Origin: a virus
Direction: 5' to 3' (one strand)
IMG/VR virus record: IMGVR_UViG_3300049479_000105
Location: 1-42,632 of that record
DNA length: 42,632 nucleotides
Below, in pieces: positions 5,518 through 37,860 of this stretch. The position numbers and the translations under genes were made by a program. Every line of letters starts with the position of its first letter. Positions within the stretch are counted from its first letter, which is position 1. The notes beneath the pieces are model-generated. The model saw only the letters and a list, made by a program, of their open reading frames with translations, ran no database searches and was not told the DNA's origin.

Positions 5518-7941
5518 CTACCAGATGTCAGCCTTGCTCAGCATCTCATTTAGTTCTTCCATGGTGCGATCATCGCTCGCGCGGGGATATGTTCCGACTG
5601 TCCCATTTGGGCCAAAAGCGTTGCCGTCACTGGTTTTTTGAATGGGACACACCTCTTCCAAAAGAGGCGGGTGTCCCATTCGTTTTGTTCCGGCGCCGTT
5701 TGAATGGGACACATCGGCATTTGAGCCTGCGGTGTCCCATTCGTCTTCCGTTCCAGTGCAAGGGTTTTGCTCTGAATGGGACACTTTTAAACCCTCTCCG
5801 CGCGTGTGTGAGAGAACAGCTTGGTAAACCATCGGAGCTTTACCCCCCTTTCCATTGGGACGCTCTTCTGCCACCAGCAAGCCCCGTTTAACCAGCCTGT
5901 CGAGGGCTTTACGTATCGCAGCCACAGAACCCCCCAGCAGGGGGTCTTGAACGAGCTGCTGGCGGCTGTACCAGCGTGGATAGCCCATACGTATCCGCTG
6001 GAGCACCTTGTCGGTCTGACTCGCAGGCGTGGTGTCCGCCTGATCCACCTCAGGGGTGTAATCCCGCAGCGAGTAGCTCAGGTCCTCTTCCTGCTTCATC
6101 AGGAGTTTGGTGCCACTGCGCCCGCAACGAGACTTTTCGATTGTGATCAGGCGACACTCCTGACCAAGATCACTCTGACCTTGCTGAGGTTTGGTCAGAC
6201 TCCATGTCTCACTGACTGCATCTCTGATAGCAGAAGTACCTCTAAAGCCTCCAGATTTATTCGCGTGGTGAATAATCATGATTGTTGTTGCTGGCCAAAG
6301 AACACCGTTATTTCTTGTAAGCCAGTACAAAGGACTGGCGAAATCGGATTTATTTTCATCAAAAGCTTTACCTCCAGAACACCCAATTAGAGAATCAATA
6401 ACTACCAAAGATGGCTTACGTTTTTTCATAAGATCTTGAAACTGTGCATAATACTGCAGAGACCAATCCGGTCTCAGTAGAGTTCTATTATCTAGCGGAT
6501 AATCGCACTCCTCAAGTTGCTCTACTAAGTCAGCAATAGGCTGGTCACCGTTAAGAATCACGACTCCACCCTGTTGCACAGGAACAGGTTTGCCTCTTAC
6601 TACGAACGGAGTGCCTTCCACAACATGTTTTGCCAAAGTCCACAACGCCATTGACTTACCATCCCCGCCAGCTCCGTAAACGATCACTACAGCCGGTTGA
6701 GGCAAAACATCAGGAATTAAGTAACTACGTTTAACAGCGTAATCCTTAATTGTATCCAGAGTTAATTCTCCAGGGCTTTCTTTATAGCCGACGTGATCGA
6801 CATAAACTTGTTCAAGTTTTGCTTGCTCTCTATAACCAGATTCGATAGCAATCTGGTTAAGTTCATAATTGCGCTTACCTGGATCCTCCAGCTCCATAGC
6901 AGCTGCAGTACGTTTCATGCTTTCTTCAAACGAAAGCTTCGGCTGTTGGATACGAACAACAGTGTCGCTTTCTGCAGCAGAAACAACCTTCCGCAGATCC
7001 TCCGAAAGCCACATGCGGCCCGGAAGCTGCTGATCCGCCATCCAGAACAGCGTGCCGAGGCTGACTGGTCCTTTGCGAAAGGACTTCCAGACCTCTTCAC
7101 AGGGGTTGCCGTCTGCCCAATCCTGAAAAAATTCGGGGTCTTCCGCAGACCACGCCGACCAAAGCGTCAAACCAAGGTCAGTTGGCAACTCCGAGTGGAT
7201 CGCCATCCCCACCTTCACCCAATGATCCCGGCTGCCATTGCCCTGCCCCGGAATCACCTTCAAGGCCGACTGGATGATCTCAGCCACCTCAGCTGGATCC
7301 CGATCCGAGAAATCCAGCGCCTTCCGGTTCTTAATGAAGCCACCGTCCTGGATCTCCTTACCGGCGTGATCCCGCATCTCCGCCAACAACCACTCAGGAG
7401 CGTCAGGAATCGCCTCCAAGTCCCCTTCAAAGCCGTATTGCCCTTCCGGTGCCTTCCCATCACTGGAGCCCGGATAAGCCCCGTAGATGACGCCCTGACG
7501 GCCCCAGAGCACCTCGTAACCAGCGCCGGTATCCGACAGCCCAAAACCCTTCACCGAGCCCCACAGAGCCTCAGGAACGCGGAACAGGTACTTCGCAGCG
7601 TTCGCTTTGGTCGAGGTAACGACTGGAGCACCCTCCAGCGAATCCCCCCACTTCTTTTTGAGACGGCTGAGATTCCGATCCACGTCGAGAATCACGAGTC
7701 CCATGCTGCGACCGCCGGTAAAGACGCCCACCGCCTGGAACACATCCGGCTTCCGCTCGATCTGGAGCGCCACGTCCGACGGCGCCATCACCTGATGGTG
7801 ACTGCGCTCTAGCGGTGTCTTGCCCTTTGAGATTTTCCCGGACTGGATCGCCTGACCCTTGGCGTAAATCGGCGCATACGCCATCCCCACAGGCAGCTGG
7901 CGCACAAAAGCCAGCAGGTCCTGCGTCTTACTTTGCGACAT
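5518..7941 (-). CDS. bifunctional primase-polymerase / AAA helicase replication protein
   Basis: 807-residue replication protein. Residues ~15-190 form an archaeo-eukaryotic-type prim-pol domain with the metal-binding DxD in LVILDVDRN (86-88). Residues ~215-305 resemble PriCT-2 (AEIIQSALKVIPGQGNGSRD...). Residues ~410-590 form a RecA/RepA-like helicase: Walker A GAGGDGKS (423-430), Walker B LVVIDS (512-517) and a sensor-like IMIIHHANKSGG (554-565). Residues ~640-710 look like a winged helix, and the last ~90 residues are low in complexity. It should lay primers and unwind DNA at the fork. The helicase segment (about 6240-6900) is visibly more AT-rich than the flanks, suggesting domain exchange. 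The DNA encoding the tail contains the six-box repeat array at 5598-5784. Confidence 0.88.
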   Translation of the reverse strand: MSQSKTQDLLAFVRQLPVGMAYAPIYAKGQAIQSGKISKGKTPLERSHHQVMAPSDVALQIERKPDVFQAVGVFTGGRSMGLVILDVDRNLSRLKKKWGDSLEGAPVVTSTKANAAKYLFRVPEALWGSVKGFGLSDTGAGYEVLWGRQGVIYGAYPGSSDGKAPEGQYGFEGDLEAIPDAPEWLLAEMRDHAGKEIQDGGFIKNRKALDFSDRDPAEVAEIIQSALKVIPGQGNGSRDHWVKVGMAIHSELPTDLGLTLWSAWSAEDPEFFQDWADGNPCEEVWKSFRKGPVSLGTLFWMADQQLPGRMWLSEDLRKVVSAAESDTVVRIQQPKLSFEESMKRTAAAMELEDPGKRNYELNQIAIESGYREQAKLEQVYVDHVGYKESPGELTLDTIKDYAVKRSYLIPDVLPQPAVVIVYGAGGDGKSMALWTLAKHVVEGTPFVVRGKPVPVQQGGVVILNGDQPIADLVEQLEECDYPLDNRTLLRPDWSLQYYAQFQDLMKKRKPSLVVIDSLIGCSGGKAFDENKSDFASPLYWLTRNNGVLWPATTIMIIHHANKSGGFRGTSAIRDAVSETWSLTKPQQGQSDLGQECRLITIEKSRCGRSGTKLLMKQEEDLSYSLRDYTPEVDQADTTPASQTDKVLQRIRMGYPRWYSRQQLVQDPLLGGSVAAIRKALDRLVKRGLLVAEERPNGKGGKAPMVYQAVLSHTRGEGLKVSHSEQNPCTGTEDEWDTAGSNADVSHSNGAGTKRMGHPPLLEEVCPIQKTSDGNAFGPNGTVGTYPRASDDRTMEELNEMLSKADIW
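5598..5784. repeat. six-box alternating 11-bp repeat array inside primase gene
   Basis: Five exact copies of GAATGGGACAC occur at 5640-5650 (+), 5671-5681 (-), 5702-5712 (+), 5732-5742 (-) and 5774-5784 (+), plus a 9/11 copy at 5598-5608 (-). Orientation alternates strictly. The start-to-start distances are 42, 31, 31, 30 and 42 bp, symmetric and close to whole helical turns. Adjacent pairs can fold into hairpins; 5640-5681 has an extra inner 6-bp stem. The boxes are translated in all three frames (VSHS, EWDT, RMGH, VCPI, NGTV), so the DNA and not the peptide is repeated. Possible roles are a replication origin or an operator array. Confidence 0.85.
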
Positions 7942-8081: not shown

Positions 8082-8663
8082 ATGGCCTTCCTTTCAAAGT
8101 CCGCATCTGCAAACGTCAACGGCGGCAACAGCGGCGGCGGCTACCTAAGCCTCAGCAAACTCCCCGATGGTGGATCCGTCCGCTTCGCCCTACTCACTGA
8201 CGAACCTCTGGAGTTCTACGAGGCCTGGGGTGCCGCCAACGGCGCTAACAAGCCCTTCCGCTTCGACTTCGAGCCCACCTACGAGGACGTGGTTGCCGAA
8301 ATGGGCGAGTTCGAGCCCCGCGAAGGACGCGGCGGCCCTGGAACAGCAGACGTGAAGTTCGCCATCGCCTGCCCGGTCTATAACTACGAGTCCGGCAAAG
8401 TCCAAGTCCTGCAAATCACCCAAAAGTCCATCTTGAAAGAGATCGACCAGATCTCTCAGATGGAGGATTACTCCAACCTGCTGGAGTGGGACTTCACCAT
8501 CAGCAAAAAGGGCAGCGGCCTCACCACCGAGTACACCGTCCGCCCAGTCCCCCGCAAAAAGGGCAGCCAAGAGCACATCGACGCCGCCTGGATCGAAGCC
8601 AAGGCTGAAGGTTTCGACATCACCCGTCTCCTCACCGGCGGCAATCCCTTCAAGGTTGGTTGA
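8082..8663 (+). CDS. probable ssDNA-binding protein
   Basis: 193-residue protein likely to coat single-stranded DNA during replication. After a Gly/Ser-rich leader it has LPDGGSVRFALLTDEPLEFY (~28-47), then a beta-rich core including ACPVYNYESGKVQVLQITQK (~95-115) and WDFTISKKGSGLTTEYTVRP (~136-157). This order, with a beta-strand carrying the KVQVLQIT-type segment and a later FTI-KKG-GL-TEY segment, is typical of phage OB-fold SSB proteins related in style to T4 gp32. The assignment is from pattern memory only. It is the first gene of the plus-strand replication unit, ahead of an exonuclease. ATGGCC start. Confidence 0.65.
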   Translation: MAFLSKSASANVNGGNSGGGYLSLSKLPDGGSVRFALLTDEPLEFYEAWGAANGANKPFRFDFEPTYEDVVAEMGEFEPREGRGGPGTADVKFAIACPVYNYESGKVQVLQITQKSILKEIDQISQMEDYSNLLEWDFTISKKGSGLTTEYTVRPVPRKKGSQEHIDAAWIEAKAEGFDITRLLTGGNPFKVG

Positions 8664-8890: not shown

Positions 8891-8899
8891 TGGTACTAT
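8891..8899 (+). promoter_or_regulatory. extended -10 element (TGgTACTAT)
   Basis: TG-n-TACTAT immediately after the terminator and 28 nt before the ATG at 8922. If used, transcription begins near 8906, downstream of the alternative ATG at 8898, so 8922 would be the start. Confidence 0.55.
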
Positions 8900-8921
8900 G
8901 AGAGTGGGAAAAACTATTCAA

Positions 8922-9764
8922 ATGGCCTCCAATACGCAAGACACACTGGCATCACTGCGTAAATGGAGACTGGAGCAAGACAACTCAGGCCCCTTCCGGG
9001 TCTACCGGGACATCAATAACAACATCTACCATAGTGTTACACACATCCTAAAGGAGACTAGCGACAAAACCGGACTGGAACGCTGGGAAGCCCGCCTGGG
9101 ACCAGTCGAGGCAAGCTGCCAGCGCAACATCGCCGCAACACGCGGCAACATGGCCCATTCACAGGCTGAATACCTCCTCAAGACTGCCCAACAGCTGGCA
9201 CGTTCCACTGCAAACAAGCGCAACAGTATTCGCTGGGACGACAACGGCCTGGCCCGCATCCCGGTCCCCATCACGCAATGGGCACTCAAACGAGTTCGCC
9301 CGAATGTCCCCCGAGTTGGCTGGAGCGCAGCAGGCTACGCCAGGGGATTGTCTGACTGGATCGCCGATAACGTCACCGAGATTTTTGCCAGCGAATTTTC
9401 CATTCACCACCCAGCCGGCTTTGCTGGAACTTGTGACGCCTTGGTGGGCCTTAAAAATAATGAGCTGGTACTAGCGGACTGGAAGACCAGTGTGGGCCGC
9501 AAAACCAAGACCGACGAAGACGGACTGGAACGTCTACCACCGGGCCATTCATACATCGACCAGTGCGGAGCCTATTCACTGGGACTTAGCCACTTGACCG
9601 GACTAAGACCAACTGGAGCAGCCATCGTGTTGGCACGCCGCTGCGGCACCCCAAACATTCACACGATGACCCGAGCCGAGCTGGATCAAGCCGAGCAGTC
9701 TTTCCTGGAACGCTGCCACATGTACTTTGAAAATCTCCATTCACAGCTTCAAGCTGAAGCTTGA
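8922..9764 (+). CDS. PD-(D/E)XK exonuclease (RecB/Cas4-like)
   Basis: 280-residue nuclease. The catalytic core is E in ASEFSIHHPAGFAGTCDALV (~162-181) followed by ELVLADWKTS (~186-195), i.e. E...G-x-x-D...D-W-K-T, the usual order of RecB-like PD-(D/E)XK exonucleases. A C-terminal Q/Y motif (SYIDQCGAYSLGL) also fits. It probably resects DNA ends for phage recombination or replication, working with the SSB-like protein upstream. The start at ATG 8922 (MASNTQDTL) is preferred over the in-frame ATG 8898, which lies inside a probable -10 element. CCATTCA repeats occur within and after the gene. Confidence 0.82.
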   Translation: MASNTQDTLASLRKWRLEQDNSGPFRVYRDINNNIYHSVTHILKETSDKTGLERWEARLGPVEASCQRNIAATRGNMAHSQAEYLLKTAQQLARSTANKRNSIRWDDNGLARIPVPITQWALKRVRPNVPRVGWSAAGYARGLSDWIADNVTEIFASEFSIHHPAGFAGTCDALVGLKNNELVLADWKTSVGRKTKTDEDGLERLPPGHSYIDQCGAYSLGLSHLTGLRPTGAAIVLARRCGTPNIHTMTRAELDQAEQSFLERCHMYFENLHSQLQAEA

Positions 9765-35439: not shown

Positions 35440-37860
35440 ATGATTCCCGGAAGCGCTAATCCTCTCCTGCTTGCTACTGCTGCAGCCGGAGGATATTCCA
35501 TTAGCAGAAGCGTTCGTTTCAACAGTAGCGACAGTGCCTACTTGTCCAGAACCCCCGCATCAGCCGGCAACCGCAAGACGTGGACCTGGGCGGGGTGGGT
35601 GAAGAGGAGCAAGTTGGGAACCCTGCAGGGATTGTTCACAAGTTCCGTATCCGGCGGGACAGACACAAACTCTTTTGATGTAAACCTGAGTTCATCAGAC
35701 ACAATATCAATCGTCGGCTATAATACTGCATGGCGAGTGACATCTCAGGTATTTAGAGACGTTTCTGCCTGGTATCACATTGTTGTGTCTGTAGATACAA
35801 CAAGTCCTACGGCTGACAACCGTATTCGTTTATACGTGAACGGCTCTGAAGTCACGACGTTTGCAACTAAGAACAACCCGACTCAGAACGCCGACCTTGG
35901 CATTAATGATACGGCTCAGCACAGCATTGGCTCTCAGCAGCCGTATTCCGGCGGTCGCGAACTAGATGCGTACCTGGCCGACCTGCACTTCTGCGATGGC
36001 ACCGCTTACGACGCATCGGCATTCGGTGAGTTCTCCGCCACCACCGGCGTGTGGATGCCTAAGCAGTTTGCTGGTAGCTACGGCTCGCAAGGCTGGAAGC
36101 TTTCGTTTTCCGATAACAGCACCGCCGCCGCATTAGGGACGGACACTAGTGGGAATGGGAATACGTGGACTGTCAATAACATTTCTGTGGCTTCTGGTGC
36201 AGGCAACGACAGCCTCGTAGACGTTCCCACTAATGGCAGCGAGGTTGATACGGGAAGTGGGGGGCAGGTGCGGGGGAACTATTGCACTTGGAATCCGCTG
36301 AAAATCAATACAAATGGGTCTCTCGCTAACGGCAACCTTGATTGGTCTTCTTCGTCGTCCGGCGGCTTAACGGTTGGCACTATTGGCGTATCAAGCGGCA
36401 AGTGGTACTGGGAAGTTACTATTAACTCTGGCACTAACTGCGGTGTTGGAGTCTTTGATCCGTCCGCAGCATTGACTACCTACAGCAGTGATTCCGCCAA
36501 GGGAATTGGCTACTACGGGAGCAGCGGCGGCATCTTTTATTCTGGTGGCAGCACAAGCTACGGCAACACGTTTACGACGGGCGACACCATAGGTGTTGCG
36601 TTAGATCTAGATAACGGGAAGATCTACTTCTCCAAGAACGGCACCTGGCAGAACAGCGGCAATCCAGCTACACAAACTAACCCAGCCCGTACTGGGTTGT
36701 CTGGTACTTATGCACCAGAAATTGATGCCGGCGCTTCCAGTGCTCATTCGGCTTCGCTTAACGCAGGCGCTCGTAGTTTCGCCTACACCGCCCCCACCGG
36801 CTTCAAGGCGCTCAATACCAGTTCGTTACCGGCCCCAGTAATCACGAAGCCTTCGACGGTGATGGATGTGAAGCTCTACACGGGTAATGGCAGCACGCAG
36901 ACGATCTCGGGGCTGGGGTTCTCGCCGGATTTGGTGTGGATCAAAAAGCGCAGTGCTGCTGGTCACGGCCCCTGGTATGACGTGCTGCGCGGCACTGGAA
37001 AAGCAATTACATCGAGTCTTACAAATTCTGAGTACACAGCAGGCTCAACTCAAGAATTGACAGCGTTCAATTCTGATGGCTTCAGTCTTGGCACTGACTA
37101 CAACTTCGACGTAAACACTTCCAGTCAGACTTTTGTCGCCTGGGCCTGGGACGCCGGCACGAGCAACGCAACCAACACCAGCGGCACAATCAGCAGCACC
37201 GTCCGCGCCAACATCTCGGCGGGGTTCTCGATTGTTAGTTATACAGGAACAGGCTCTAACGCCACGGTGGGACATGGCTTGGGTGTGGCGCCGCAAATGG
37301 TCATTATTAAGCGACGTAGTGGGGCAAATGATTGGATTGTCGGGCACACAGCACTAGGGGGGTGGGGTTATTTCCTTTACTTAAACCTTACGAACGCTAA
37401 GGATGGTCCTTACTCGACGATTTTCCAAAGCACTGCGCCAACATCCAGTGTTTTCTCGCTCGGCAATAGCACTTATGTGAATGGTTCCTCGGAAACTTAC
37501 GTCGCTTACTGCTTCGCCCCAGTAGCCGGCTTTAGCGCGTTCGGCAGCTACACCGGCAACGGCAGCACGGATGGGCCGTTTGTTTATACCGGGTTTAGGC
37601 CGAGGTGGGTTCTGATTAAAGAATCCAGTGCTTCAGGTAACAATTGGAATATCTGGGATGCTGCTCGTGATGACTACAACGCAACAACCAAGCAGCTAAA
37701 AGCGTCCTCTTCAGATGCAGAGGCGACGAACACCTTCGCCGACTTCAACTCAAATGGTTTCAAGATACGAGTTTCGACAAGCGGCATTAACACTTCTTCT
37801 GCCACCTACATCTACGCCGCCTTCGCTGAATCGCCCTTCCAATACGCCCGCGCACGCTAG
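35440..37860 (+). CDS. LamG/SPRY-domain tail appendage protein
   Basis: 806-residue virion protein beginning MIPGSANPLLLATAAAGGYS. Residues ~20-190 form a LamG/concanavalin-like domain (KTWTWAGWVKRSKLGTLQGL, later IRLYVNGSEVTTFATKNNPT). Residues ~310-410 form a SPRY domain (SSGKWYWEVTINSGTNCGVG, later TIGVALDLDNGKIYFSKNGT). The last ~330 residues carry repeated DUF7483-type units (YTGNGSTQTISGLGFSPDLV; ASYTGNGS...GFRPRWVLIKES). All are binding modules without catalytic signature, suggesting adhesion to host glycans or proteins. SPRY tail proteins are known from cyanophage and pelagiphage genomes. It follows the fibre gene by 4 nt. Confidence 0.82.
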   Translation: MIPGSANPLLLATAAAGGYSISRSVRFNSSDSAYLSRTPASAGNRKTWTWAGWVKRSKLGTLQGLFTSSVSGGTDTNSFDVNLSSSDTISIVGYNTAWRVTSQVFRDVSAWYHIVVSVDTTSPTADNRIRLYVNGSEVTTFATKNNPTQNADLGINDTAQHSIGSQQPYSGGRELDAYLADLHFCDGTAYDASAFGEFSATTGVWMPKQFAGSYGSQGWKLSFSDNSTAAALGTDTSGNGNTWTVNNISVASGAGNDSLVDVPTNGSEVDTGSGGQVRGNYCTWNPLKINTNGSLANGNLDWSSSSSGGLTVGTIGVSSGKWYWEVTINSGTNCGVGVFDPSAALTTYSSDSAKGIGYYGSSGGIFYSGGSTSYGNTFTTGDTIGVALDLDNGKIYFSKNGTWQNSGNPATQTNPARTGLSGTYAPEIDAGASSAHSASLNAGARSFAYTAPTGFKALNTSSLPAPVITKPSTVMDVKLYTGNGSTQTISGLGFSPDLVWIKKRSAAGHGPWYDVLRGTGKAITSSLTNSEYTAGSTQELTAFNSDGFSLGTDYNFDVNTSSQTFVAWAWDAGTSNATNTSGTISSTVRANISAGFSIVSYTGTGSNATVGHGLGVAPQMVIIKRRSGANDWIVGHTALGGWGYFLYLNLTNAKDGPYSTIFQSTAPTSSVFSLGNSTYVNGSSETYVAYCFAPVAGFSAFGSYTGNGSTDGPFVYTGFRPRWVLIKESSASGNNWNIWDAARDDYNATTKQLKASSSDAEATNTFADFNSNGFKIRVSTSGINTSSATYIYAAFAESPFQYARAR

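Follow-up and report, generated by a model that had tools for sequence, protein, structure and literature searches.

The origin of phage lambda lies inside gene O, and its four iterons with 18-bp inverted repeats, together with a 39-bp AT-rich region, stand in the coding sequence of the protein that binds them (PMC6022878). O only marks the origin, and it is P that brings DnaB. A similar arrangement is found in phage SPP1, in which oriL is located in gene 38, so that initiator-binding repeats are within the initiator gene, although these are direct repeats accompanied by an AT-rich element and served by a separate helicase and loader, and a second origin is present about 13 kb away (PMC6316719). 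In the plasmid pRN1, the ORF904 protein carries primase and SF3 helicase in one chain that has a winged helix at its C-terminus, and the origin site that the replicon needs, a 100-nt stem-loop explicitly without iterons, is located at the gene's 3' end but outside the gene; the authors propose the same arrangement for some phages (PMC4234260). The alpha protein of P4 also unites primase, helicase, and a winged helix that binds origin repeats (PMC4234260). The PrimQH proteins, a family of archaeo-eukaryotic primases, combine primase and PriCT with a diverse P-loop ATPase and with a winged helix at the C-terminus, and Kazlauskas et al. proposed origin recognition as a possible task of the winged helix in fused primases of this kind (PMC5862659). 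In the PLE RepA initiators the DNA-binding domain co-varies with the origin and is exchanged as a module, and origin swaps proved the matching of domain and origin, while there are only two specificity groups, the origin is separate and intergenic, and the initiator family is different from the one described here (PMC8263062).

The whole 42,632-base record IMGVR_UViG_3300049479_000105 (positions 1 to 42,632) was analysed and is called the window below. The 3' end of its primase-helicase gene carries an array of six short boxes at 5598-5784, which we consider to be probably the replication origin of the phage, placed within the gene of its own initiator. Because the winged helix of a replication enzyme very probably reads this array, and the array is symmetric, phased, and found once per genome, an initiator with its origin would be the best explanation of the locus. 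As in lambda and SPP1, multiple specific sites are present inside the coding sequence of a replication protein; unlike lambda, primase, helicase, and DNA reader would be one protein, and the boxes are about 10 bp long and mirror-arranged, with no clear AT-rich element. P4 alpha differs in having a Toprim primase. It belongs to another helicase family, and P4 ori has different repeats. An identity as a P4 alpha-like protein was rejected, as Pfam gives PriCT-2 and AAA_25 (RecA-like) and not Toprim or D5, neither of which was found by Pfam in the window primase-helicase. An origin of the pRN1 type was also rejected, since the boxes of the phage array are phased in the manner of iterons and lie within the gene or extend over its stop codon. 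We found no published description of the array in the literature searched, most subscription papers being outside its reach. The parts are known, but the combination is new: the recognition code is unusually clear, and the mirror-symmetric array takes no account of where the reading frame runs or the gene stops. The features of the locus are as follows.

5518..7941, minus strand: primase-helicase gene (807 aa), with the array in its 3' end
Residues 224-302 of the primase-helicase: PriCT-2 (Pfam, 2.9e-15)
Residues 404-564 of the primase-helicase: AAA_25 RecA-like ATPase (Pfam, 3.3e-17)
5818..6024, minus strand: coding region of the C-terminal winged helix (about residues 640-708; AlphaFold2, Foldseek)
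About residues 673-686: recognition helix of the winged helix (AlphaFold2 model)
5911..5913, minus strand: codon of residue 677 (Arg in the window), the position in the recognition helix whose identity follows box bases -2 and -1
5598..5608, minus strand: box 1, AAATGGGACAG, with core GGACA and TG intact
5612..5633, plus strand: left copy of the second element, CCAAAAGCGTTGCCGTCACTGG, within the outer spacer that separates box 1 from box 2; a mirrored element found family-wide
5640..5650, plus strand: box 2, GAATGGGACAC
5671..5681, minus strand: box 3, GAATGGGACAC
5702..5712, plus strand: box 4, GAATGGGACAC
5732..5742, minus strand: box 5, GAATGGGACAC
5750..5769, minus strand: mirrored copy of the second element, CAAAACCCTTGCACTGGAAC, within the outer spacer that separates box 5 from box 6; found family-wide like the left copy
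5774..5784, plus strand: box 6, GAATGGGACAC
8082-8663: SSB-like gene, neighbour of the primase-helicase gene
8898-9764: exonuclease gene, neighbour of the primase-helicase gene

From the N- to the C-terminus, the protein is composed of PriCT-2, AAA_25, the winged helix, the array-bearing tail, and a conserved C-terminal tip. In addition to these Pfam domains, a PHROG DNA primase match spans residues 24-292; for an N-terminal archaeo-eukaryotic primase domain of the PrimQH type, there was no Pfam Prim-Pol, NCBIfam, or PDB match to the window protein. Weak matches to O-like PHROG families (E 8e-5 and 2e-3) cover residues 656-777, that is, the winged helix and tail only. The AlphaFold2 model of the winged helix has a pLDDT of about 90 in its helices and, counted along the recognition helix, residue 677 comes fifth. 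Foldseek matched this domain to MarR, ZitR, MecI, and PadR-like proteins, with scores that are weak (best E 4e-3, TM about 0.6), as expected for a query that is a 92-residue fragment. Most members of the family end 3' of the array in an acidic-aromatic tip, ER(T/S)..EL..LM.EAA..WD (5521-5574 and residues 790-807 in the window), possibly a protein-binding tail.

When the whole record was scanned, GAATGGGACAC occurred in five exact copies, all in the array, and had 0 copies elsewhere in the 42,632 bases; the sixth copy, AAATGGGACAG, is a full box by the family definition because it keeps the core GGACA with TG before it. Five copies of one 11-mer per 200 bp were never reached in 50 first-order Markov genomes, which gave no more than 3. 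The box pairs 1/6, 2/5, and 3/4 share the mirror centre 5691, and the array is therefore a complete dyad. Our recount agrees with the preliminary description on the six boxes, their orientation (- + - + - +), the start distances (42, 31, 31, 30, and 42), and the symmetry about the centre, and the peptides that it listed as overlapping the boxes (VSHS, EWDT, RMGH, VCPI, and NGTV) are present in the translation; its proposed search for stray 11-mers in the phage found none.

Relatives were collected by protein similarity and not via the boxes, which gave several hundred loci, of which 389 complete gene ends from viral contigs (167 distinct) form the gene-end set. An array with at least four GGACA cores (range 4-13 copies) follows the winged helix in 162 of the 167 distinct gene ends, and GGACA occurs 2.56 times per 100 bp in the tail, whereas elsewhere in the gene the figure is 0.12 and over the following 1.5 kb it is 0.21. 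While the core is shared, the bases before it vary from phage to phage (AATG, CAGTG, CAGCT, CAGTT, AGGTG, GGGGG, AAACA, AAAAC, CCCT, and others), and the four pre-core bases show an identity of 0.605 within arrays vs 0.312 between arrays. The only tail without GGACA, that of L323, has six alternating boxes CAATG[CT]GACAG instead. In relatives at a still greater distance (33-35% identity), the tail arrays are built on different cores: GAAACA in 8-9 copies in L474 and L480, and GTGTCA in 10 copies in L481. The genome-collection search returned one good relative, which comes from a metagenome bin and has the array; plasmid-borne relatives are distant cyanobacterial replication proteins. Among named phages, S-CBS4 alone has a detectable relative of the ATPase part (29%), and the region there shows no array.

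The array is also found essentially once per genome. In the longer records that carry them, 9-mer boxes fall almost only in the array cluster: the 46 copies of AGTGGGACA in seven such records all lie within one cluster per record, for GGTGGGACA the array accounts for 6 of 6 copies in two records and for 7 of 9 copies in another, AAACGGACA forms a single cluster only in each of three records, and all 21 copies of CCCTGGACA are in the array cluster (four records). The flanks of the fetched loci contained no second box cluster, except for extension past the stop codon.

Several observations argue that the array is under selection as DNA. In moderately diverged pairs, 1.9% of bases differ in the core vs 16.0% in the rest of the tail, and at third codon positions the figures are 2.3% vs 19.0%; across relatives, boxes are found in all frames and on both strands. 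In one clade (around L164, L251, L271, and L268) the stop codon falls within the array, which has five boxes inside the gene and three or four beyond and is still mirror-symmetric (pairs -140/+60, -93/+14, -80/+1, and -66/-12 in L271), while in L309 the stop codon is at another site and the array is unmoved. Because the core is nearly unchanged, the boxes are in all frames, and the array runs across a stop codon, the view that selection acts on DNA and not on protein is supported, and the comparison of homologues that had been proposed for it shows boxes and spacing kept while the peptide, and even the stop codon, shift. The stop-straddling clade is without the acidic-aromatic C-terminal tip.

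The phasing along the helix, which had been described for the window, holds family-wide for boxes of the same orientation: across 50 layout classes their spacing has a periodicity of 10.2 bp (mean cosine 0.655 vs a maximum of 0.107 in 300 randomisations), and the peak is still at 10.2 bp (0.45) without the arrays having tandem 10-bp boxes. In the same 50 classes a mean of 75.7% of boxes have a mirror partner vs 38.7% in random layouts, and 11 classes are fully symmetric vs 0.01 expected. Some phages have inward-and-outward arrays, as in the window, and another layout consists of five minus boxes and then five to seven plus boxes in 10-bp steps. The outer spacers of relatives contain a second element with the consensus of roughly CCAAAACCCAGTG-N3-ACTGG, and the identity of outer spacers is 0.496 when mirrored, compared with 0.367 when direct and 0.343 +/- 0.005 when shuffled. 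This second mirrored element (about CCAAAACCCAGTGnnnACTGG) is present too in the non-coding half of the stop-straddling arrays.

The boxes are very probably read by the winged helix of their own primase-helicase, because residue 677 tracks box changes best and predicts the pre-core bases. Lys677 goes with GG or CG before the core (29/29 arrays), Gly677 with NA (18/18), and His677 or Gln677 with CT or TT (29/29); Thr677 is accompanied by CT or GT, Pro677 by CA, and Arg677 mostly by TG, or by NC when residue 674 is Glu. Residue 677 is not the whole code, as three Arg677 arrays have GG (L374 group) and some Arg677 arrays have TT or CT if residue 680 is Thr. On a tree of the domain surrounding the recognition helix, with the helix itself left out, residue 677 was first of 101 variable columns, and of the 16 changes that it undergoes, 11 share their branch with a change of the box; its p-value of 3e-11 (next column 1e-5) treats branches as exchangeable and is a ranking aid only. 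By simple mutual information, which is confounded by relatedness, residues 674 and 677 are high but not first. Distant relatives that played no part in deriving the rule (L444-L447, L482, and L483) also obey it, with Arg677 and TG in L444, L445, and L446, and Lys677 with GG in L482 and with CG in L447; L483, the sister of L482 at 81% identity, has Asn677 and the box CA.

The C-terminal domain and the array are within 300 bp of each other and are exchanged together, and part of the linkage seen on the core tree is therefore physical. Since the two move as a single block, the core-tree co-change test no longer served as main evidence and the domain-tree test took its place; the latter test and the Lys-to-Asn sister pair reduce the concern about physical linkage but do not remove it. 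Box types are interleaved on the tree of residues 1-620 (e.g., L099, L117, and L121 within the Gly677 group), which suggests that winged helix and array are swapped together as a cassette.

If the array is the origin, several copies of the primase-helicase would bind the boxes via the winged helix, with residue 677 and its recognition-helix neighbours reading the two positions before the core. Helical phasing would put boxes of the same orientation on one face of the DNA, and the dyad layout would arrange the subunits in two mirror-image sets, so that two helicase assemblies facing opposite ways could be loaded, melt the DNA, and prime both forks. The array, its conservation at the DNA level, its symmetry and phasing, and its co-variation with residue 677 are computed support, and the earlier comparison with lambda, an origin within its own initiator gene, is strengthened by the retention of the array in homologues and by this co-variation. 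Among 53 representatives, no AT-rich unwinding element was evident within 500 bp of the array, AT content showed a mild rise of 4-5% at 600-800 bp downstream, and GC skew around the array had no turn in the sense expected of a bidirectional origin; the skew, put forward in the preliminary description as a check, thus gave nothing usable. The missing AT-rich element and skew turn are a real gap in the case for an origin.

The strongest rival is an operator or autoregulatory array, in which the primase-helicase would bind the boxes and control its own operon or downstream genes. Initiators often control their own transcription, the array is upstream of the next same-strand genes, the last boxes of the marine clade are about 30 bp before the next likely start codon, and co-variation with residue 677 would be equally expected from an autoregulatory operator bound by the same protein. 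However, the array is about 2.1 kb downstream of the gene start, away from the promoter of the gene, the next likely same-strand gene in the window starts about 280 bp beyond box 1, and a layout of several phased boxes in dyad symmetry, with a helicase as their reader, is typical of origins. Since the reader appears to be the winged helix of the same primase-helicase, we favour the origin and regard a role as operator instead of origin as unlikely, while both could be true. That a separate phage or host protein reads the boxes, the primase-helicase gene only hosting the site, is very unlikely: the second mirrored element may bind something else, but residue 677 tracks the boxes better than the other 100 of 101 columns and predicts them in distant relatives.

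We give slightly less credence still to a hairpin or RNA element, in which the function would lie in the structure that the inverted boxes form in mRNA or single-stranded DNA. The folding potential claimed earlier is real, with the strand folding better than shuffles (z = -5.5), and pRN1 does use a stem-loop downstream of its primase-helicase gene (PMC4234260). Any inverted repeats are expected to show this potential, and the hairpin idea is not needed; same-strand box spacing matches the 10.2-bp helical repeat, one sub-clade has tandem same-orientation boxes every 10 bp, and GGACA is nearly fixed while the pre-core bases follow a protein residue. Hairpin formation was accordingly judged a by-product of inverted sites and rejected as the function. 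A site for partition, packaging, or another function (a parS-like or pac-like array) is the most improbable of these explanations. The array is the only one in the genome, and inverted-box arrays occur also in centromere-like sites, but a search of 21 window proteins gave no ParA/ParB-type partner, the terminase gene is about 8 kb from the array, and the box reader appears to be the primase-helicase.

Beyond the origin itself, a few residues of the recognition helix, above all 677 but also 674 and 680, may switch together with the entire array in a rapidly diversifying origin code that gives orthogonal origins to co-living phages. We put this forward tentatively and with more doubt than confidence, citing metagenome 3300045999, with at least five box types, where L089, L106, L147, L162, and L178 are related phages with five different box types in one sample. 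Phages would diversify under such a code because this lets them escape cross-use or attack by competitors and satellites. The recognition partner can be read here from sequence alone, as the box word and one recognition-helix amino acid change together in about 160 relatives, and the suggestion of Kazlauskas et al. becomes testable, with site, reader, contact residue, and expected base preferences named (PMC5862659). About 20 putative natural specificity switches would allow direct study of how an initiator and 6-12 copies of its site change jointly; origin predictions follow for many uncultured phages, and the orthogonal initiator-origin pairs are possibly useful as tools.

The remaining genes of the window are a siphovirus-like set. 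The structural protein encoded at 35440-37857 has up to 44% identity to proteins of Methylophilales, Pelagibacter, Roseobacter, and cyanobacterial phages, and the portal is closest to those of cyanophages KBS-S-2A, S-H1, and S-2L (about 36%). S-2L and KBS-S-2A were scanned as structural-gene relatives, and S-2L has a different primase-helicase, D5/VirE-like by eye. Directly downstream of the PrimPol gene of S-2L (MW334946), eight GGCAC/GTGCC sites on both strands lie within 360 bp (L442:23061-23290), the densest such cluster in that genome, with 1.4 expected for a word that was chosen after looking. This cluster may be an analogous origin beside an unrelated primase-helicase.
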